DNA of 64,000 nucleotides from a bacterium (GTDB lineage Bacteria; Myxococcota; UBA727; JAUIJE01). The notes under the pieces are model-generated. The model was not told the origin of the DNA. It ran no database searches and was given only the letters and a program-made list of their open reading frames with translations. Of the stretch, positions 20,246-30,015 are shown piece after piece. Each line of letters starts with the position of its first letter. The first letter of the stretch is position 1. The stretch lies in the NCBI GenBank assembly GCA_030431455.1, contig JAUIJE010000011.1:1-64000 (forward strand). Direction: 5' to 3'. The position numbers and the translations under genes were made by a program.

Positions 20246-22258
20246 ATGACCCCGCGGACCACGCTCGTTGCCCTGGTGTTGACCCTGTGCCTGGGGGCGC
20301 CCGCCCACGCCGGCCAATGGGCGAACAACCAATCGTTGGGCGGCTTCTCCGCCGTCCACGTGTACACCCCCGACACCTACAGCCCGGTGGGGCCGCCAAG
20401 CGCCCGGGCGCTCCTGGTGGTGCTGCACGGTTGTACCCAGAGCATCGGGGCGTTTTTGACCGCCAACCTCGAGGACGGGGCCGACGAGTTCGGGATGGTG
20501 GTGGCGGTGCCGGACGCGGTGAACAAGGCGGGCTTCGGGTGTTGGTCCTACTGGCAGGGCGAAAAGAGCCGGACCGCGGACGACTATGCACGGTTGATCA
20601 GCTTGGCCCAGACCCTGTCTGGCGACGCCAGCTACGGCATCGACCCCGACCAGGTGTACATCGCGGGCCTGTCGAGCGGGGCCGCGTTTGCGCACACCAC
20701 CGCCTGCCTGGCCCCGGACGTATTCGCCGGGGTCGGGGTCAGCGCGGGCCCGAGCATCGGCACGAGCTCGTCGGGGGCGCTGGGCACGTGTGAAGCGGCG
20801 GACGTCGAAGCCCGCTGTGCCCAATACGCGGGCCCCACCTATGCGCCGTTTTTTGCCACCCAGGTCGCGTCGCTCGCCCACGGGGACGCGGACACCACGG
20901 TGAACACCTGCTACCTCGACCAGAACACCGACGGCATGGCCGGCCTCTACGGTGTGAGCGCGCAGCCGGGCACGACCACGATCACCGAAGGCGCGGGCCA
21001 TGTCGCCACCGAGACCCTGTACACCGACGGGCGGGTGTCGCGGCTGTCGTTCTCCGGCCTGCCCCACGCCTGGTCGGGGGGAGCGGGCGCCTCGGGCAGT
21101 TACATTTCGGACGAGAGCATCAACTACGCGTCGTACCTTGGCGCCTATTTCGCCGCCTACAACCCGCGGGTGGGTCCGCCCAATCCGCCCCCGGTGGTGA
21201 GCAACGTCGCCGCCAGCGTGGCCGGCAGCGTCGTCACCGTGAGCGCGGACGTCACCGACGACGGCGTGGTCGCGTCGGTGTCCGCGGACATCGCCTCGGC
21301 CGCCACCGGCAACGTGGTGGACACGGTGACGCTCGCGGGGAGCGGGTCGTATCTGGGCCAGAGCGGCTCGTTGCCCGATGGGGTGTACGTCGTGACCATC
21401 ACCGCCACGGACGCGGGGGGCGCGAGCGCCGAGGCCGACGCGGGTCAGGTCACTGTGGGCACGCCGCCGCCCCCCACCGCCCCGGCCTTGAGCAATGTCA
21501 CTGCGGTGCCAACGGGGGCCTGCGCCACCGTCACCGGGGCTGTCATCGACGTGAACGGCGACCTCGACCACGTCGAGGCGAGCTTCGCCGGCGGCCCCGC
21601 GGTGCCGGCCAGCGTGGTGGGGACGTCGTTTTCGGCCACGCGGTGCGGCCTGCCCGGGGGCGCGCAGACGGTCACCGTCACCGCCACCGACCTCGCGGGC
21701 GCCGCGAGCCAAGCCGAGGCGTCGTACACCATCGACGCGGTGGTCGAGGGGACCTTGGACGAACACATCGCCGCCGGGCGCCTAGATTTCCCCAACTACG
21801 CGGATTGTTACCTCGAGTACGGCAGCGCCACGTTTGGCTTGTCCGAGGTGGTGGTGAGCGGGGGATGCCAATGGCAAGACGACGACAACACCTGCGCCGG
21901 CCCGGTCGTCGCGTGTACGGCGGTCGGTGATGGCGACGGTGACGGCGACGGGGATGGCGACGGGGATGGCGATGGAGACGGGGATGGAGACGGGGATGGA
22001 GACGGCGACGGGGATGGCGATGGAGACGGGGATGGCGACGGGGATGGCGATGGAGACGGCGACGGGGATGGAGACGGCGACGGGGATGGCGACGGGGATG
22101 GCGATGGAGACGGAGACGGGGATGGCGACGGCGATGGGGACGACGATGGGGACGACGACACCGGCGGCTGTTCCGCCACCCACACCGGGGGACGAAGCGC
22201 TCCGTTTGGCTTGGCCGGTCTGTGGTGGATCGCGTTCGTGTTCCGTCGTCGTCGGTGA
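20246..22258 (+). CDS. Secreted PHB-depolymerase-family esterase with (DG)n linker and anchor
   Basis: 670 residues. A signal peptide (ends AHAG, about residue 24) is followed by an alpha/beta-hydrolase of the PHB depolymerase/feruloyl esterase type: oxyanion region LHGCTQ, nucleophile box GLSSGAA, and a C-terminal catalytic His region (GLPHAW). Two Ig/Fn3-like modules of about 85 residues follow (about 315-405 and 410-500). Then come a short Cys-rich segment, about 40 (DG) repeats, and a tail with Cys, a hydrophobic stretch and four Arg. The tail resembles MYXO-CTERM but lacks the second Cys of the motif. Likely a surface-anchored polyester or carbohydrate-ester hydrolase; substrate inferred. 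GGAGG 5 bp before ATG 20246 decides the start. Confidence 0.87.
   Translation: MTPRTTLVALVLTLCLGAPAHAGQWANNQSLGGFSAVHVYTPDTYSPVGPPSARALLVVLHGCTQSIGAFLTANLEDGADEFGMVVAVPDAVNKAGFGCWSYWQGEKSRTADDYARLISLAQTLSGDASYGIDPDQVYIAGLSSGAAFAHTTACLAPDVFAGVGVSAGPSIGTSSSGALGTCEAADVEARCAQYAGPTYAPFFATQVASLAHGDADTTVNTCYLDQNTDGMAGLYGVSAQPGTTTITEGAGHVATETLYTDGRVSRLSFSGLPHAWSGGAGASGSYISDESINYASYLGAYFAAYNPRVGPPNPPPVVSNVAASVAGSVVTVSADVTDDGVVASVSADIASAATGNVVDTVTLAGSGSYLGQSGSLPDGVYVVTITATDAGGASAEADAGQVTVGTPPPPTAPALSNVTAVPTGACATVTGAVIDVNGDLDHVEASFAGGPAVPASVVGTSFSATRCGLPGGAQTVTVTATDLAGAASQAEASYTIDAVVEGTLDEHIAAGRLDFPNYADCYLEYGSATFGLSEVVVSGGCQWQDDDNTCAGPVVACTAVGDGDGDGDGDGDGDGDGDGDGDGDGDGDGDGDGDGDGDGDGDGDGDGDGDGDGDGDGDGDGDGDGDGDGDGDDDGDDDTGGCSATHTGGRSAPFGLAGLWWIAFVFRRRR
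21927..22160 (+). repeat. Long (GAY GGN)n repeat
   Basis: About 230 bp of Asp-Gly codons with 9- to 18-bp higher-order units (GATGGAGACGGGGATGG recurs), the longest such tract in the window. It encodes the stalk next to the C-terminal anchor of the esterase. Its internal identity makes slippage and length variation likely. Confidence 0.9.
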
Positions 22259-22261
22259 GCC

Positions 22262-23332
22262 GTGCTGTTCAAGCAAGCCCACCTGACCGGCATCGCCGCG
22301 GGGCGCATCACCCGCGCGTTCCGCAAATGGACGCGCCCCACGGTCAAAGAAGGCGGCACCCTCACCTGCGCGGTGGGCGTGCTCGCCATCGACGAGGTCG
22401 CGGCCATCGACCGCGCCGAGGTCACCGAGGCGCACGCGCAGCAGGCCGGGTTCGACAGCGCCGCGGCGCTGTGGGCCGAGCTCGACAAGCGCAAGCCCGC
22501 GCCGCTGTACCGCGTGACCTTCCGCCTGGTGGGCGAAGACCCGCGGGTGGCGTTGCGCCAGGACACGGCGTGGACCGCCGGCGCCGTCGACGAGATGCGC
22601 GCGTGGTTCGCCCGGCTCGACGAGCGCTCCCCCGACGGGCCCTGGACCGACAAGGTCCTGCGCACCGTCGCGGCAAACGAACAAGTCCGCGCCCCGACCC
22701 TGGCCGACCAGATCGGGATGCAGACCAAGCTGTTCAAAGATCGGGTGCGCAAACTCAAAGGCAAGGGCCTGACCGAGAGCCTGCCCATCGGGTACCGCAT
22801 CAGCCCGCGCGGGCGCGCGTTGATGGCCAAGCTGGGGCTCGAGGTCGCGTCCACCCCGCCGCCGGCCGCGGCGGTCACCGACGAGGACAAAGCCGCGGTG
22901 TTGGCCCTGGTCGAGCGCGCGGGGGTCGTGCTCCAAGCCGCGGCGGGACCGGTGCCGACCCTGACGTACGAGATCGCCGGGGCCCCGTTCAACACCTCGT
23001 GGTGGGGCCACCAAAAGGCCCACGAGATGCTCGCCCTCATCGAACACGTGGCGGATAGTCCAGATACATTGGGCTGCCGGCTGTACCAGGGCAAGAAGAC
23101 CTACGTGCACCGGCGGCTCTGGCCCCACCTGTTGGCGCTCAGTCCCCGGCTCCCCGCGTCCCAGACCGAGGTGGTCGAAGAGGAGCACACCGCGCGCGGC
23201 CGGCACCGGGTGGTGACCACCCCGCTGGTCGATTGGGTCCCCGGTGACGTGTGCCAAGCCGCAGCCGAGATGTCCGAGGAAGAGGCGCTGGCCGGGCTCG
23301 GAGACTGGGTCGCGCGCGAACTGTGCTGGTGA
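22262..23332 (+). CDS. ASCH-domain protein with winged-helix-like middle
   Basis: 356 residues, soluble. Residues 1-110 resemble an ASCH domain (start LFKQAHLTGIAAGRITRAFRKW), a PUA-like fold linked to RNA or modified-base binding. Residues about 135-195 look like a winged helix (ADQIGMQTKLFKDRVRKLKGKGL, then SPRGRALM). The C-terminal 150 residues are unassigned (NTSWWGHQKAHEMLALIEHV). Start is GTG 22262, 3 bp after the esterase stop, with GGTGAG upstream, so it is cotranscribed although the products look unrelated. A bidirectional terminator follows. Possible role in RNA or nucleotide sensing; inference only. Confidence 0.75.
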   Translation: MLFKQAHLTGIAAGRITRAFRKWTRPTVKEGGTLTCAVGVLAIDEVAAIDRAEVTEAHAQQAGFDSAAALWAELDKRKPAPLYRVTFRLVGEDPRVALRQDTAWTAGAVDEMRAWFARLDERSPDGPWTDKVLRTVAANEQVRAPTLADQIGMQTKLFKDRVRKLKGKGLTESLPIGYRISPRGRALMAKLGLEVASTPPPAAAVTDEDKAAVLALVERAGVVLQAAAGPVPTLTYEIAGAPFNTSWWGHQKAHEMLALIEHVADSPDTLGCRLYQGKKTYVHRRLWPHLLALSPRLPASQTEVVEEEHTARGRHRVVTTPLVDWVPGDVCQAAAEMSEEEALAGLGDWVARELCW

Positions 23333-23343
23333 CGTAGACAACA

Positions 23344-23369
23344 AAACGCCCGCCAAGCGGCGGGCGTTT
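23344..23369. terminator. Bidirectional intrinsic terminator
   Basis: Perfect 11-bp stem (AAACGCCCGCC with GGCGGGCGTTT) and a 4-base loop between two converging genes. T or A tracts flank both sides, so it can stop transcription from either direction. Confidence 0.9.
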
Positions 23370-23378
23370 CGAGAACGG

Positions 23379-25805
23379 TCAGGGTTTGTTCGCGGGGGGG
23401 GATTTCGCCGGCTGATCCGCGGGACTGAACACCCATGGGTAGGTCACCTTCACCGTGCCCCCGCCGCGCGGCTTGGGGAACTGCAACCGCTTGACCACCT
23501 TGAGCACGCAGTCGGCCACTCGCTTGTCTTGCAGGGTGCTCTGGGAGACCTTGGCGCCGGTGACCGTGCCGTCCGCGCCGATGCTCCAAGCAAGCACCAC
23601 CTTGCCGGCGAGGTCTGGGGTGTCCGAAAGTCGAGCGGTGTAGCAATGCTTCACTTGGCTCTGCACTCGGGTGATCACACGCTGAATCTCTTCGCGGGAC
23701 AGGCTCCCCAGATACGTCACCTTGGCCGGCTTCAGCTTGGTGCGTGCGCCACCACGCCCGCCGAGGTCGATGCCCCCGCTGCCACGACCATAGCCAATGC
23801 CATTGCCTGAGCCGCCTGTGCCGAGCACGTGGCCGCCGCCGCCCGCGCCGGTGCCGCGCAACCCGAGGCCCCCCGCCCCCCCGGTCGTGCCCACGCTGGT
23901 GCCGAGCAGGCCGCCAAGCCCGGTCTGCAACTCGTTGGGGTCCGGCTTTTCCGGTCGCGTCATCTCGGCCGAGGCGGCGCGCACCGCGGTGTCCACCGCC
24001 ACGAAGCTTGTATAATCTGTGAGCAGCCGGTGTTCGAGCCCGAGCGCGGTGACCTCGGCTTCGGCCTCATCGCTCTCGGGCAAGAAGTCCACGAGCTCCC
24101 GCACGCGTTCGCGGGCCCAGAGCACCCGGAGGGTGCGGTGGGCCTCGTCCTCGAGGTGGTCTTCGACCTCGACCACCCCGTGGTAGGTCTCGGCCCCGGC
24201 CCTGGCCTCGACGAGGATCTGGCCCGCCGCCGGGCCGCGGTACTTGCCCATCACCACCACCGGGCGGTCCGCGAGCAGGTCCCCGAGGTGTTGCGGGGCC
24301 AGGTCATAGGCGTCGAACCCGTTGAACGACAGCTTGATGTCGGTGAGCGCGGGGCGTGACGCGTACCGGGCGAACCGCGCCACCGTGGGCGCGACCTGGG
24401 CCTCGGTCTCGACGAAGAATGGCGCGGTGCCCGACGCGCGGGCGATGCCCTCCATGAGGAATCGATTGGGCGACGGCCCGACCCCCATCGCGAACAATGT
24501 GGCTTGATCTCGGCGCGACCAGATGTCGTGAATGACCTCGCGGTCCGCGTGGATGAAGCCGTCGCTCAACAACACGAACGACCGCGCCACCCCGTCGCCC
24601 ACCGCGGGCAGGGCGAAGGCCCGGTCGAGGGCATCCTGCAGCAACGTGCCGCCTCCCGCGCCGCTGTCGTTCAAAAACGCCAATGCTTCCGCAATGTGTT
24701 TGCGCGTGGCGGGTACACTCTTGTGCCGGAACGTGGCCTGGGTCCCCGCGAACAGGATGAGATTGAAGCGGTCCTCCGCCCCCAGGCTGTGCAGCAACCG
24801 GGTCATGGTCGCGCGCACCGTCTGCAGGGGAAAGCCGGCCATCGAACCGGACACGTCGACGACGAACACCAGCTCGCGGGGGGGGATTTTGTCCTCGGGG
24901 AGGGCGGGGGGCGGGGCCAGGGTCATGAGGAAGTAGTTCTCGCCATGGTCTTTGTCTCGGTAGAGCAGCGCGCCCTGGGCAATGGCATTGTCGGCGTGGC
25001 GCCACTCGAGCACCAGGTCGGTGGCATCGCCCGGTCCCGCGTCAGCGGCGTTCAACCGGACCCAGGCTTCGCGGGCGGAGCGGAACTGCGGCTGGATCAC
25101 GTGGGTGGGGGACCGGACCTCCCGCACCGGCAGCGCGCCCTTGAGCAAGACATCGACGCTCCAGCTCCGGCCCGCCTGGGGGTCGACCACGTAGGGATTT
25201 TCGCTCGTGCTCTTTTCGGCCCGAAGCGGGTTGAACTCGCCGCCGTAGCGCGCCCCCACCACCCGTGGGTACACGAACCGCGTCACCCCCTCTTCGGGGA
25301 CGAGCAGCTCCGAATACTCGAACTCGATGTCGACCACGTCGCCGGGTTGAATGTGGCCCACCCGCGTCCGGAACACGTTGGGGCGTTCTTGCTCGAGCAG
25401 GCTCGCGGTGCGGCCCTCGGCCAATGCTTTTTGATAGGCCCTTCGGGCCTCCGCGCGCTTTTTGATCTCGGCCCGGATGGTGCGCGGGCCGATGCGCATC
25501 AGCAGGTCGTGCACCGCCGCGCGGGTCGACGCGGGGAAGACGTAGTCCCCGGACAACACCTGGTCGGATTCGTTGACCCAGGTTTGGTAGACGCGGACCT
25601 CGGCCACCGGGCCGGTGATGTGCACCTCGGCCCGGCTCGCAGACAAGAACAGCAGGTCTTGCGCGGGCAGGTCGATGCCGGCCGCGGGGGGCAAGGCGTC
25701 GATGGCGAAGTGGGGGGCCAATGTTCGGTCCCGGTCCTCCCCCGGGTCGGTCCCGGGGACGGGCAGGCCCGCCGACAATGTGCATGCAAGAATGAACGGG
25801 ACCAT
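23379..25805 (-). CDS. VIT/VWA-domain protein with AgmX/PglI-type C-terminal domain
   Basis: 808 residues, signal peptide of about 22. A VIT domain (about 40-165; NVFRTRVGHIQPGD) and a von Willebrand A domain (about 290-460) with an intact metal site (DVSGS) match inter-alpha-trypsin-inhibitor-like bacterial proteins. A Gly-rich linker (about 645-705) precedes a TonB-like C-terminal domain of the AgmX/PglI type (GKVVLAWSIGADGTVTGAKV, two conserved Cys). In Myxococcus, AgmX and PglI belong to gliding-motility genes; the domain alone does not prove that role. It probably binds envelope partners. AGGAGG before ATG 25805 fixes the start. Two small proteins with the same kind of domain lie directly upstream on the same strand. 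Confidence 0.88.
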   Translation of the reverse strand: MVPFILACTLSAGLPVPGTDPGEDRDRTLAPHFAIDALPPAAGIDLPAQDLLFLSASRAEVHITGPVAEVRVYQTWVNESDQVLSGDYVFPASTRAAVHDLLMRIGPRTIRAEIKKRAEARRAYQKALAEGRTASLLEQERPNVFRTRVGHIQPGDVVDIEFEYSELLVPEEGVTRFVYPRVVGARYGGEFNPLRAEKSTSENPYVVDPQAGRSWSVDVLLKGALPVREVRSPTHVIQPQFRSAREAWVRLNAADAGPGDATDLVLEWRHADNAIAQGALLYRDKDHGENYFLMTLAPPPALPEDKIPPRELVFVVDVSGSMAGFPLQTVRATMTRLLHSLGAEDRFNLILFAGTQATFRHKSVPATRKHIAEALAFLNDSGAGGGTLLQDALDRAFALPAVGDGVARSFVLLSDGFIHADREVIHDIWSRRDQATLFAMGVGPSPNRFLMEGIARASGTAPFFVETEAQVAPTVARFARYASRPALTDIKLSFNGFDAYDLAPQHLGDLLADRPVVVMGKYRGPAAGQILVEARAGAETYHGVVEVEDHLEDEAHRTLRVLWARERVRELVDFLPESDEAEAEVTALGLEHRLLTDYTSFVAVDTAVRAASAEMTRPEKPDPNELQTGLGGLLGTSVGTTGGAGGLGLRGTGAGGGGHVLGTGGSGNGIGYGRGSGGIDLGGRGGARTKLKPAKVTYLGSLSREEIQRVITRVQSQVKHCYTARLSDTPDLAGKVVLAWSIGADGTVTGAKVSQSTLQDKRVADCVLKVVKRLQFPKPRGGGTVKVTYPWVFSPADQPAKSPPANKP

Positions 25806-25869
25806 ACAAACCTCCTGACCGGATCAGGCCCAGACCGTTCGCGGCTCGACGTCGGCTGGGCGGGTGGCG

Positions 25870-26337
25870 TCACTGACGCGCAGGAGATCGGACAGGGGAG
25901 GGGGCAAAAGGTTCCGGGCCGGGTGAGGGCCCAAACGTGAGGTCCACCGTGGGCGTCCAGCGGCAGGGGGCGGCCTCCACCGGTCCCGGCCCCGGGCCGG
26001 GGGCGCGACACATGAGAAAATAGGCCTGCCGCATCACCAGCCGGGACCGGCCCCCCGGGGCAGGGGCAAAGCGCAGCGCGGTCAGCGTCCGCCGCAAGCA
26101 GCGCGCGAACCGGCGGGGGCCGGGAGCCGAAAGCTCGACGTTCTCGACGTGACCGCGGCGGTCGATGACCAACGTGGCCAGGACCCGGCCGCTCCGCCGC
26201 GGGTCTTCGTTCACCTCGCGGGCATAGCAGCGGACCAGGCCCGCGCGGGCGCGCCGCACCGGCGCGGTCATGTCAGGGGGGCGGGGCAGCCCCGAACACA
26301 ATGAATAGGCAAGCGAGAGTGCGAACAGGCTGCCCAC
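25870..26337 (-). CDS. Small secreted AgmX/PglI C-terminal-domain-like protein
   Basis: 155 residues. A short signal-like start (GSLFALSLAYSLCSG) is followed by about 95 residues with the pattern of the TonB-like AgmX/PglI domain: CYAREVNEDPRRSGRVLATLVIDRRGHVENVEL, then a second Cys (FARCLRRTL). The end is Pro-rich. Start is GTG 26337, 6 bp after the upstream stop, with no strong ribosome site, so translation is probably coupled. It sits between two relatives, suggesting one envelope module. Function unknown. Confidence 0.75.
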   Translation of the reverse strand: MGSLFALSLAYSLCSGLPRPPDMTAPVRRARAGLVRCYAREVNEDPRRSGRVLATLVIDRRGHVENVELSAPGPRRFARCLRRTLTALRFAPAPGGRSRLVMRQAYFLMCRAPGPGPGPVEAAPCRWTPTVDLTFGPSPGPEPFAPSPVRSPARQ

Positions 26338-26343
26338 GATGCG

Positions 26344-26874
26344 CTATAGTTCCCGGAGGGTGAGGTAGGGCGCTTCGCGCGGCAGCTCTTTGCCCGGGGG
26401 CAGCGGGCGAAACACCACCGGGTAGCGCACTTCGTAGTGTCGCCCCTTGGTGGGGATGAGCAAGCGCAGATCGTGCAGCACGTTGGTGACACACTCGACG
26501 ACGTTCACGTCGGCCAGCGACGACTCCTCCACCTCGACCCGCTCGACGTGGCCATCGAGTTCAAAGAAGATGCGCCACCGCACCCGGCCGGCCAGATCCG
26601 GCTCTCGTTGTCGTCCGTGTTCGTAGCAGGCGCGCATCCTCGGGCGCACCGCCTTGAACAACGGTTCGAAGTCGCCCCGGTGCGGTCCGGAGACGCAAGG
26701 CATATTCGGCACGCCGGGGTTGAATCTCACCGGGCGCCTCCGCCGTCGCCGGTGCCCGGTCGGGGGCATGAAGGGATCGCGCGGCTCGACCTCCACCTTT
26801 GCGGGCTCAGGCGGCGGGGATGTTTGGTGGCCGCCGGTGCTCCACATCCAGGTCCACAATAAGAACGCGGCCAT
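26344..26874 (-). CDS. AgmX/PglI C-terminal-domain-like protein with short anchor
   Basis: 176 residues. The start MAAFLLWTWMW gives a short hydrophobic anchor, then a Pro-rich and Arg-rich linker, then the same domain type as its neighbours (ACYEHGRQREPDLAGRVRWRIFFELDGHVERVEV with paired Cys). The AGGAGGGG ribosome site and ATG 26874 are strong, but both lie inside an 18-bp hairpin (26865-26905) in the mRNA, so initiation may be controlled. First of three genes ending with the VIT/VWA gene. Confidence 0.78.
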   Translation of the reverse strand: MAAFLLWTWMWSTGGHQTSPPPEPAKVEVEPRDPFMPPTGHRRRRRRPVRFNPGVPNMPCVSGPHRGDFEPLFKAVRPRMRACYEHGRQREPDLAGRVRWRIFFELDGHVERVEVEESSLADVNVVECVTNVLHDLRLLIPTKGRHYEVRYPVVFRPLPPGKELPREAPYLTLREL

Positions 26875-26905
26875 GTCCCCTCCTGTGAGGGAGACACGGC
26901 CGCGT
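26865..26905 (-). promoter_or_regulatory. Long hairpin enclosing a ribosome site and start codon
   Basis: On the transcribed (minus) strand, 18 bases pair with 19 around a 4-base loop, with one bulge and one G-U pair. The right arm contains the AGGAGG-type site and the ATG of the gene at 26874. The mismatch is A-C on the other DNA strand but G-U in this RNA, so the structure fits the minus-strand transcript better. It could be the terminator of the upstream Fe-S gene (followed by UUCUUAUU) or a translation-blocking element. Confidence 0.65.
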
Positions 26906-26931
26906 CCTGGGCGGTTCCCACCGCGGGCTTG

Positions 26932-29124
26932 TCAGTTGGTGGCGAGCCGCTCGGCCACGAGCTCGGCGATGTCCTTGACCGCCACGTCCTCCTCGACGTC
27001 CTTGGCTTTGGTGCCGTCGGTGACCATGGTCATGCAGAACGGACACGCCACCGCCACCGCCTGGGACTTGCCGTTCTTTTTGCCCAGGGTGACCAAGGCT
27101 TCTTCGGTGCGCTCGACGTTGACCCGTTTGCCGATGTGCTCTTCCATCCACATGCGGCCGCCGCCCGCGCCGCAGCAGAAGCTCTTGTTCTTGCTGCGGG
27201 GCATCTCTTTGGTCTCGATGCCGGGCAGGCCCGCGAGGATGGCCCGCGGGGCGTCGACCTCTTCGTTGTAGCGGGACATGTAGCAGGGATCGTGCAGGGT
27301 GATTTGTTCCTCGATCTTCTTTTTGTCGTCGAGGGGGATGCGCTTGTCCTTCATCAGCTCCGCGAGCAGCTGGGTGTGGTGCATGATCTCATGCTTGACC
27401 CCGTAGGCCGGGTACTCGTGCTTCAACGAGTTGAAGCAGTGGGGGCAGGCGGTGAAGATCTTCTTGAACTTGTCTTTGTGGGTCTCGATCACGGCCGCGT
27501 TCTCTTGGGCCAAGGCGTCGAATACATACTCATTGCCCATGCGCCGCGCGGGGTCACCGGTGCACTTTTCTTCACAGCCGAGGATGGCGAAGTCCACCCC
27601 CGAGGCTTTCAAGATCTTCACCAACGCTTTCTGGGTCTTCTTCGCGCGGTCGTCGGTGGCGCCGGCGCAGCCGACCCAGAACATGTATTCGACCTCGCCC
27701 TCGACGTTGGCCATGGTCTTCACGTCTTCGCCTTCGATCCAGTCTTCGCGTTTGTCTTGGCCGATGCCCCAGGGGTTGCCCTGGGTCTCCATGCCCTTGA
27801 ACGCGGGGGTGAGCTCTTCGGGGAAGCTCGCCTCCATCATCACCAACGACTGGCGGAGCCCAATGAGACTGCCGGGGACCGAGTCGATCAACACCGGACA
27901 GGCGTCGATGCAGGCCGCGCAGGTGGTGCACCCCCAGAGCTCGTCGAGGTGAATCTGGCCCTGGACCTTGGCGTAGGTCCCGTCTTCTTTGACCTCGTCT
28001 TTGTTGTCCCGGTCAAACTCGTCGCGGTTGATGAGGGGGACCTTGGGCTCGTATTCCTTGAACGCGTCTTTCTGGTCGTCCTTGAGCCGCCCGAACGCGT
28101 CTTTGAACTTGAGGATGTCGACGCCGTTGTGTTCGCGGAGGTTGTCCTTGATGTCGTGCAGCACCTTCTTGGGTTGCAGGGGCTTGCCGGTGGTGTGGGC
28201 CGGACAGACCGCGTTGCAGCGGCCGCACTCGGTGCAGGCGAAGGTGTCGAGGATGGTCTTCCAGTCGTACTCGTCGACGCGATCGATGCCGTACTTCTCG
28301 AGGTTCTCGTCCATGAAGTCGATCTTGGGGGGCAGGCCCATGGGGGCCTCCTCCTTCTCGAGGTAGATGTTGGGCCCGGCGAACACCAGGTGCATGTGTT
28401 TGGACGTGGGCACGTAGGCGCCGAAGCCGAGGAAGATGCTCAGGTGGGCCCAGTAGCCGGCCTCGTGGATGTAGTAGAGGGTGTTGGCGTCGATGCCCAC
28501 CATCCATTGGGCCACCAGCGACGACAGCGGCACATACCAATGCAACTGGGTCGCCATCGCGCCGCCCTGCATCAACATCGCGTTCTTGCTGCCTTCGAAG
28601 ATGAAGAAGGTGATGTAGAGGAACAAAATGAACCAGAGGATGATCTCGGCGTCGAGCGACCGGGGCATCAGGCGGTCGACCTGGCCGGAGAAGCGGCGGG
28701 CGAGGGCGATGACGCTCATCAGCACCACCGCGCCGGCCATGAAGTCTTGGGACAGGTGGTAGATGTGCATCAACGGCGCAGGCAGCACGGTGCCGTAGCT
28801 CAGGGCCGACACCCCGAGCACGTCGGGGAACCACGTGGTCAGGCCGGTGAGCAACAGCTCCATGTGGCCGATGCCGAGGATGAGGAAGCCGTACAGGAAG
28901 AAGACGTGCATCAGGCCCGCGTAGGGGTCCTGCATCACCTTCTTGTGGCCGAACACCAGCCGCACGACCTTCATCGCGCGCTCGCCGACGTTGTCGGTGA
29001 GCTTTTCGTCGGGGTCCTTGCCCGCGCGGATCATCGCGTAGATGTGCAGAAACTTCGTCGCGGCGAACCACGACACCCCGGCAAGCATGGCCAACACGAC
29101 GACCGACTTGATGATTCCGTACAC
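26932..29124 (-). CDS. Membrane Fe-S oxidoreductase, EMO type (ETF:menaquinone oxidoreductase-like)
   Basis: 730 residues. The first 250 hold about six membrane spans with His residues, resembling the heme-b-binding NarI-like subunit. Two [4Fe-4S] ferredoxin motifs follow (CTECGRCNAVCP and CTTCAACIDACP). The C-terminal half has two CCG-type cysteine domains (CPHCFNSLKHEYP, FCCGAGGGRMWMEE, CPFCMTMV) as in heterodisulfide reductase HdrD/GlcF. This order is that of the membrane proteins proposed to pass electrons from electron-transfer flavoprotein to menaquinone during acyl-CoA oxidation. No etf genes are adjacent, but icmF elsewhere in the window suggests acyl-CoA metabolism. GTG 29124 with AGAAAGGTGG is the best start. 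An alternative is another HdrD-like quinone reductase. Confidence 0.85.
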   Translation of the reverse strand: MYGIIKSVVVLAMLAGVSWFAATKFLHIYAMIRAGKDPDEKLTDNVGERAMKVVRLVFGHKKVMQDPYAGLMHVFFLYGFLILGIGHMELLLTGLTTWFPDVLGVSALSYGTVLPAPLMHIYHLSQDFMAGAVVLMSVIALARRFSGQVDRLMPRSLDAEIILWFILFLYITFFIFEGSKNAMLMQGGAMATQLHWYVPLSSLVAQWMVGIDANTLYYIHEAGYWAHLSIFLGFGAYVPTSKHMHLVFAGPNIYLEKEEAPMGLPPKIDFMDENLEKYGIDRVDEYDWKTILDTFACTECGRCNAVCPAHTTGKPLQPKKVLHDIKDNLREHNGVDILKFKDAFGRLKDDQKDAFKEYEPKVPLINRDEFDRDNKDEVKEDGTYAKVQGQIHLDELWGCTTCAACIDACPVLIDSVPGSLIGLRQSLVMMEASFPEELTPAFKGMETQGNPWGIGQDKREDWIEGEDVKTMANVEGEVEYMFWVGCAGATDDRAKKTQKALVKILKASGVDFAILGCEEKCTGDPARRMGNEYVFDALAQENAAVIETHKDKFKKIFTACPHCFNSLKHEYPAYGVKHEIMHHTQLLAELMKDKRIPLDDKKKIEEQITLHDPCYMSRYNEEVDAPRAILAGLPGIETKEMPRSKNKSFCCGAGGGRMWMEEHIGKRVNVERTEEALVTLGKKNGKSQAVAVACPFCMTMVTDGTKAKDVEEDVAVKDIAELVAERLATN

Positions 29125-29284
29125 GGCGCCACCTTTCTCAAGACCGCGGGGGCGACCGCGGCAGACGCCCTTTAACACCCACAAAATCGGTCGTCTATGG
29201 CGATGACGCAGTGCGATATGTCCAGAAAGATTCCGGTTTTTCCCGCCTCGCCCGCCAATGGTAATGGACATCCGGAGGTCTCGC

Positions 29285-29623
29285 ATGGTGCGCGCGGCGG
29301 GGGCGGTGGTGGCGGTGTTCTTGGCGTACTGCACCGCGATGCAGGTCAACGATCCCGACGCCGCCTTGTGGATCGGGTTGTACGGCGTGGGGCTGGCGCT
29401 GGCGGGGGCGGTGGCGGTCGGGCGCGCGCACCCGGTGGTCCTGCTCACCTATGCGGGGGTCAGCGCGGCGGGGGCGGGGTTTTGTCTGCGGGCGGGGCTG
29501 CCCCCCTCCTGGCTCGACGACGAGGTGGGCCGGGAAGCGATGGGGCTGCTGCTGCAGGCGGTGCTGTTGGCGGCCTTGGCCGCCGGGGTTCAGCGCGGGG
29601 GACGGGGCACCACCCGGTCGTAG
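29285..29623 (+). CDS. TMEM220-family membrane protein
   Basis: 112 residues with four hydrophobic segments and the family feature MQVNDPDAALWIGLYG near the N-terminus. Predicted inner-membrane protein of unknown role. CGGAGG before ATG 29285 decides the start over an upstream ATG. Its 3' end overlaps the convergent hemerythrin gene by 34 bp. Confidence 0.82.
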   Translation: MVRAAGAVVAVFLAYCTAMQVNDPDAALWIGLYGVGLALAGAVAVGRAHPVVLLTYAGVSAAGAGFCLRAGLPPSWLDDEVGREAMGLLLQAVLLAALAAGVQRGGRGTTRS

Positions 29624-30015
29624 ATGGTGCGGTTTTCGTGGACCATGCGCTCGTGGAGCATCTGCAGAACCTCGGAGGTGGCGAGGGCAAACGCGGCCGG
29701 ATCGCGGCGCACCTCGTCGGGGGTCCAGCTCTCGTCGTAGGCGAAGAACGTCTGGTAGATGGGGCCGAGCTCGTCGGCCAATCGTTGCCCAATGTCTCTG
29801 AGTTCTGCGTCGGGATGGCCCCGCAGCCACGGGTACAGGGCCTCGTCCTCCATGGCGGCGTGGACCCGCAGCTGTCCACAAAAACGCGCCCGGGCCCGCA
29901 GGGTGGGCATGATGTCGTCGGGGAAGGTCCCGTCGTACAGCTCGCGCACCAGATCGGCGGCGAGCTTTTGCAGTTCGCGGTGTTGTTGGCGGAATCGCGC
30001 AAAGCGGTCGAGCAT
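29590..30015 (-). CDS. Hemerythrin HHE-domain protein
   Basis: 141 residues. The four-helix pattern has the expected metal-ligand residues: HRELQKLA, HAAMEDEALYPWL (HxxxE), and HERMVHENRTIYD. Such cytoplasmic proteins bind a di-iron centre and act in oxygen, nitric oxide or iron-cluster stress. ATG 30015 follows a GGGGG stretch; a longer TTG-started form would add Pro-rich sequence unlike the family. A TGTGAC/GTCACA palindrome lies about 70 bp upstream and may control it. Confidence 0.85.
   Translation of the reverse strand: MLDRFARFRQQHRELQKLAADLVRELYDGTFPDDIMPTLRARARFCGQLRVHAAMEDEALYPWLRGHPDAELRDIGQRLADELGPIYQTFFAYDESWTPDEVRRDPAAFALATSEVLQMLHERMVHENRTIYDRVVPRPPR

Follow-up and report, generated by a model that had tools for sequence, protein, structure and literature searches.

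A minus-strand hairpin at positions 26907-26863 of the window, the 64,000-nt stretch of DNA analysed here (G000:C12:1-64000, from a genome of 7.7 Mb with about 68% G+C), is probably the intrinsic (Rho-independent) terminator of an Fe-S oxidoreductase transcript, overlapping the start of the next open reading frame (ORF). The features of the region are as follows.

26932-29448, minus strand: Fe-S oxidoreductase ORF with CCG cysteine-rich and 4Fe-4S domains, stop codon TGA at 26934-26932 (ORF list, profile matches).
26911-26924, minus strand: small 5-bp stem-loop, GCGGU-GGGA-ACCGC, immediately 5' of the main hairpin (301-nt fold).
26887-26907, minus strand: left arm of the main hairpin, with 15 and 5 paired bases flanking the bulged U 26892; the 15-base part is GGACGCGGCCGUGUC (26907-26893) and the inner part is CCCUC (26891-26887).
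26883-26886, minus strand: loop, ACAG.
26863-26882, minus strand: right arm, GAGGGGACAUGGCCGCGUUC, carrying the ATG and four of the six Shine-Dalgarno bases.
26879-26884, minus strand: Shine-Dalgarno sequence AGGAGG, 4 nt 5' of the ATG (26874-26872).
26855-26865, minus strand: T-rich tract TTCTTATTGTG at and beyond the stem base, the putative terminator U-tract (sequence, T-rich site scan).
26344-26874, minus strand: 176-aa ORF with an AgmX/PglI C-terminal domain, whose first in-frame start is the hairpin ATG (ORF list, profile match).
25870-26337, minus strand: 155-aa ORF with a second AgmX/PglI-like domain (profile match of 38.5 bits, just below the cut-off of 40).
23379-25805, minus strand: 808-aa VIT-VWA protein with an AgmX/PglI C-terminal domain (ORF list, profile matches).

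The three genes with AgmX/PglI-type C-terminal domains, coding for two small proteins and the VIT-VWA protein, lie in succession at 23379-26874 on the minus strand. The gene nearest the hairpin had been called AgmX-like in the first-pass annotation, and the label holds: residues 75-156 of its 176-aa product match NF033768 with 52.8 bits against a curated cut-off of 40, and this ORF has no Pfam match at 0.001. On the plus strand of the window, a 672-aa ORF contains a long GAC/GGC/GAT-type tandem repeat (21917-22159, periods of 12-54 bp), which translates into an Asp-Gly tract close to the C-terminus.

RNA folding of the minus strand from 26907 to 26863 gives a stem of 20 bp, two of them G-U pairs, that is interrupted by a single bulged U and capped by a 4-nt loop. 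The core of 18 bp described before, which has a single bulge and one G-U pair, is correct; two further outer pairs, one of them G-U, extend it to 20. The first-pass annotation placed both AGGAGG and ATG in the right arm, which is true of the ATG, whereas AGGAGG has four of its six bases in the arm and its first two in the loop. It also put the hairpin 27 bp after the Fe-S stop codon; the measured distance is 24 nt for the 20-bp stem or 26 nt for the 18-bp core. The sequence that it named after the hairpin, UUCUUAUU, is found at 26865-26858. The fold of the 61 nt around the hairpin has a free energy of -41.5 kcal/mol on the minus strand, compared with a shuffle mean of -20.6 (z -6.7), and none of the 200 shuffles is equally stable. 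The plus-strand fold of the region reaches -33.2 kcal/mol and the G-U pairs are mismatches there, bearing out the strand asymmetry (G-U versus A-C) that had been pointed out. Because of these mismatches, and because a T-rich tract stands 3' of the stem on the minus strand only, the hairpin is oriented along the genes. A bidirectional terminator was rejected, as no T-tract follows the stem on the plus strand.

To place the hairpin against its genome background, genes were called with a simple codon model over 964 kb (contigs C8, C18 and C12), and 742 of 744 were scanned, two being too close to an end. One contig has an apparent low G+C content that is a masked-base artefact; this contig could affect the training of the codon model only, not the hairpin counts. 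The hairpin (-40.3 when scored as a single hairpin) is the strongest within 110 nt after the stop codons of the 742 sampled genes. Post-stop hairpins of -30 or lower occur after 36 of the 742 genes, as against 6 of 742 control regions inside the same genes. At -35 or lower there are eight after the 742 genes and none in the 742 in-gene controls, so that chance does not account for the hairpin. It is likewise the strongest hairpin preceding any of the 1663 sites with at least six T in eight bases. Such sites have a preceding hairpin of -30 or lower in two cases, both 3' of stop codons (201 of the 1663 sites follow stops). Shuffling yielded one such case among 1663 sites, and with a threshold of -20 the real sites are only modestly in excess (79 versus 61 in shuffles). 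Among hairpins at or below -25, at least five of the next 10 bases are T in 16 of 173 post-stop cases versus 1 of 110 in-gene cases. Convergent neighbours are not over-represented after strong post-stop hairpins (24/67 versus 246/741 overall), and most of these hairpins in the genome have no T-tract; thus not every strong post-stop hairpin is a terminator, and strength alone is insufficient. Another post-stop hairpin (-34.7) was observed at G000:C8:361748-361802 (in L160), where the right arm extends into the Shine-Dalgarno sequence of the next gene (GGAGGA), the gene itself beginning 2 nt past the folded stretch.

At least six T in eight bases are found at about 0.2% of positions, and on the transcribed strand UUCUUAUU stands right at the stem base. 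It is a moderate example of a U-rich tract: it is interrupted, with 5 T in the 10 bases past the full stem, and termination efficiency may therefore be partial. In the frame of the AgmX-domain ORF, TTCTTATTGTG codes for F-L-L and includes a TTA codon (26862-26860). Long genes contain 19 TTA codons among their 215912 internal codons, and one such rare codon sits exactly within the hairpin's T-rich tract, which suggests that the T-richness has been kept for its own sake; the placement fits a tract retained for termination. Among called genes of at least 600 nt (contigs C8, C18 and C12; L142-L186 and the window), 29 of 269409 codons are TTA, in 25 of 555 genes. This rarity is reminiscent of bldA-type TTA control in Streptomyces.

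A terminator overlapping the next gene was one of two functions suggested in the first-pass annotation, and it is supported by the post-stop position, the strength of the stem, the 4-nt loop, the T-rich tract, which is confined to the minus strand, and the recurrence of hairpins after the homologous gene. Like typical intrinsic terminators, the hairpin combines a G+C-rich stem and a 4-nt loop with a T-rich tract 24 nt after a stop codon; it differs from them in its unusually long 20-bp stem, its interrupted T-tract and the start of the next ORF inside it. A stock terminator scanner run on 23000-30000 did not list it. For the E. coli terminator tR2, passages of PMC4824070 report that efficiency is maximal when the distance between stop codon and terminator exceeds 27 nt, and that the ribosome no longer interferes at distances above about 27 nt. 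A ribosome on the Fe-S gene might thus interfere here, but any effect should be slight because the stem starts 24 nt past the stop and a ribosome at the stop codon should hardly cover it. The same passages indicate that a terminator can also be efficient when it sits within 100 bp of the beginning of a coding region (PMC4824070).

Hairpins recur after the homologous Fe-S gene in relatives. The closest relatives of the Fe-S protein are 59-63% identical, the nearest named ones being Myxococcota/Myxococcales metagenome assemblies, and the 15 other genomes of the same order that were searched are all from other families. Of 90 homologous loci, 89 match the end region of the protein and 69 could be read past the stop, 20 having been dropped for running off the contig or having an ill-defined end. 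A post-stop hairpin with z of -2 or lower is present in 35 of the 69, and one of -29 or lower in 27 of 69, compared with 0 of 69 in-gene controls (counted from the table). The two nearest relatives, L031 and L032, have no significant post-stop hairpin (L032 and L121 are one locus, without a hairpin). The Myxococcus and Corallococcus examples closely resemble the hairpin in the window: their stems are long and G+C-rich, and TTCGTC-like tails come after them. Eight Corallococcus loci (L053, L055, L057, L067, L071, L072, L074 and L084) share a near-identical GGGCCCGGTGGCTCCC...GGGAGCGGCCGGGCCC hairpin after the Fe-S gene, with varying tails. The downstream neighbours of the Fe-S gene differ among the inspected loci, and inspection by eye of short translations at 16 loci, including that of the window, found no second AgmX cluster 3' of the gene. 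The hairpin therefore seems, from these comparisons, to be associated with the end of the Fe-S gene and not with the AgmX genes.

The fold also sequesters the start of the AgmX-domain ORF. The ATG is paired with a probability near 1 (unpaired probability of its bases at most 0.002), and opening a 13-base stretch around the Shine-Dalgarno sequence and ATG costs 25.0 kcal/mol, whereas the 687 called starts have a median cost of 7.2 and never exceed 21.4; once the left arm is removed, 0.7 kcal/mol is enough. Because opening the start costs about 25 kcal/mol, above any called start, read-through RNA should, on this model, be nearly silent for the ORF when read from the hairpin ATG. We infer the following sequence of events. 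Polymerase leaving the Fe-S gene would make the 20-bp stem, which would fold while the enzyme sits on the T-rich tract, and the majority of Fe-S transcripts would end there. The next co-directional ORF would begin within this terminator, its Shine-Dalgarno sequence and ATG being part of the 3' arm and the U-tract supplying its first codons. In RNA that reads through, the start site would be locked in the stem, so that the AgmX-domain ORF would be weakly expressed or would use another start or promoter.

The ATG at 26874 is the probable start of the AgmX-domain ORF. It is possible, if somewhat doubtful, that the real start lies further downstream (GTG 26730, ATG 26847 or another), with the hairpin ATG unused and the hairpin a plain intergenic terminator hiding nothing; this explanation is compatible with the terminator and competes solely with the overlap. 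The gene caller chose 26730, and the first 48 codons from the hairpin ATG have a codon-model score of -4.6, when the 1st percentile of called genes longer than 600 nt is 0.3, but the called genes are an upward-biased control, since poor N-termini are trimmed by the caller. The rare TTA at codon position 5 and an opening cost exceeding all 687 called starts also speak for a downstream start, and a -10-like TATTGT at 26861-26856 would suit a leaderless start at ATG 26847. Against it, AGGAGG lies 3-10 nt 5' of the ATG at 33 of 436 called ATG starts versus 1 of 2472 out-of-frame ATGs inside genes, a statistic somewhat inflated in that the caller rewards AGGAGG and the hairpin sequence itself constrains it. 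In addition, the protein read from the hairpin ATG opens with a short hydrophobic stretch in the style of secreted proteins, as does the next ORF with its similar N-terminus, and the ORF's frame is the best of the three minus-strand frames in five of eight scoring windows from 26892 to 26677.

The other function suggested in the first-pass annotation, a conditional switch for the downstream envelope genes, finds no support: the 301-nt fold has no alternative pairing, there is no Rfam match, and neither the hairpin nor its flanks contain a consensus promoter. The start opening cost of 25 kcal/mol also leaves little room for regulation. One form of such control would be a translational lock with a key in the style of T4 late genes, in which the start is sequestered in the long RNA and an internal promoter, or an RNase cut in the loop, yields in certain conditions a shorter RNA whose start is free. 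This is improbable. The start is indeed sequestered in the long RNA and nearly free without the left arm (25.0 versus 0.7 kcal/mol), and passages of PMC2988022 describe the arrangement for I-TevI and other T4 genes. However, a promoter scan of 23000-30000 found no promoter-like site in or just 5' of the hairpin; between 26990 and 26850 the best sigma-70-like matches have 6 of 12 bases mismatched, and the best sigma-54-like matches (at 26873 and 26980) have 4 mismatches. No promoter for a short transcript lacking the left arm was thus found by these consensus scans, which cover alternative sigma factors incompletely. Nor does any close relative support conservation of a lock, the nearest Fe-S proteins being those at 59-63% identity. 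T4-late-type control would be possible only given an unrecognised promoter or an RNase cut inside the hairpin. The sigma-54 pattern with 3 mismatches was set aside as uninformative, with at least 500 matches in the window versus 602 expected.

Riboswitch expression platforms feature sequestered starts and terminator-like stems, and the hairpin resembles them in both respects, yet a riboswitch, thermosensor or attenuator with a signal-dependent fold is very unlikely. The window has no Rfam match, and one fold dominates: the stem is intact in the 301-nt minimum-energy fold, with the ATG paired at a probability near 1. The untranslated leader, only 24 nt long, is too short to house a sensor that does not reach into the Fe-S coding region, and the stem is far too stable to melt at ordinary temperatures. 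A REP-like palindromic or other mobile repeat inserted between the genes, which the long near-perfect palindrome in an intergenic gap might bring to mind, has next to no likelihood, since the hairpin occurs as a single copy in the genome and the next best match to a 71-bp query is 18 bp.

Terminators inside the 5' ends of ORFs and hairpins that sequester starts have both been described, in passages of PMC2988022 and PMC4824070, and the overlap of terminator and start is in that sense already known. The internal terminators of T4 mobE and segF resemble the hairpin in being intrinsic terminators in the 5' end of a downstream coding region, as set out in part of PMC2988022; the hairpin in the window differs in being chromosomal (bacterial) and non-homologous, with termination predicted from sequence. 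The T4 late-gene hairpins of I-TevI, e and soc, described in the same source, share with it a stable stem that, in long transcripts from upstream, hides the Shine-Dalgarno sequence and the start region, whereas the hairpin in the window has no recognisable internal promoter and a T-tract that makes it terminator-like. It is most likely an extreme example of an ordinary kind. Among the papers listed by our literature search, none dealt with terminators in this bacterial group.

The most far-reaching interpretation is a fused terminator and translation lock on a bacterial chromosome, in which the Fe-S transcript would be short, read-through would be blocked again at the start codon, and the AgmX genes would be made only from RNA with its 5' end in the loop or right arm. 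It has little chance of being right; if true, this conditional double lock would parallel, in a bacterium, the control of T4 late genes. Read as a probable terminator of the Fe-S transcript, the hairpin makes a clear case of compact gene packing, in which one 45-nt segment may close one gene at its 3' end and open the following one at its 5' end, and this sharing makes start-site annotation unreliable there.
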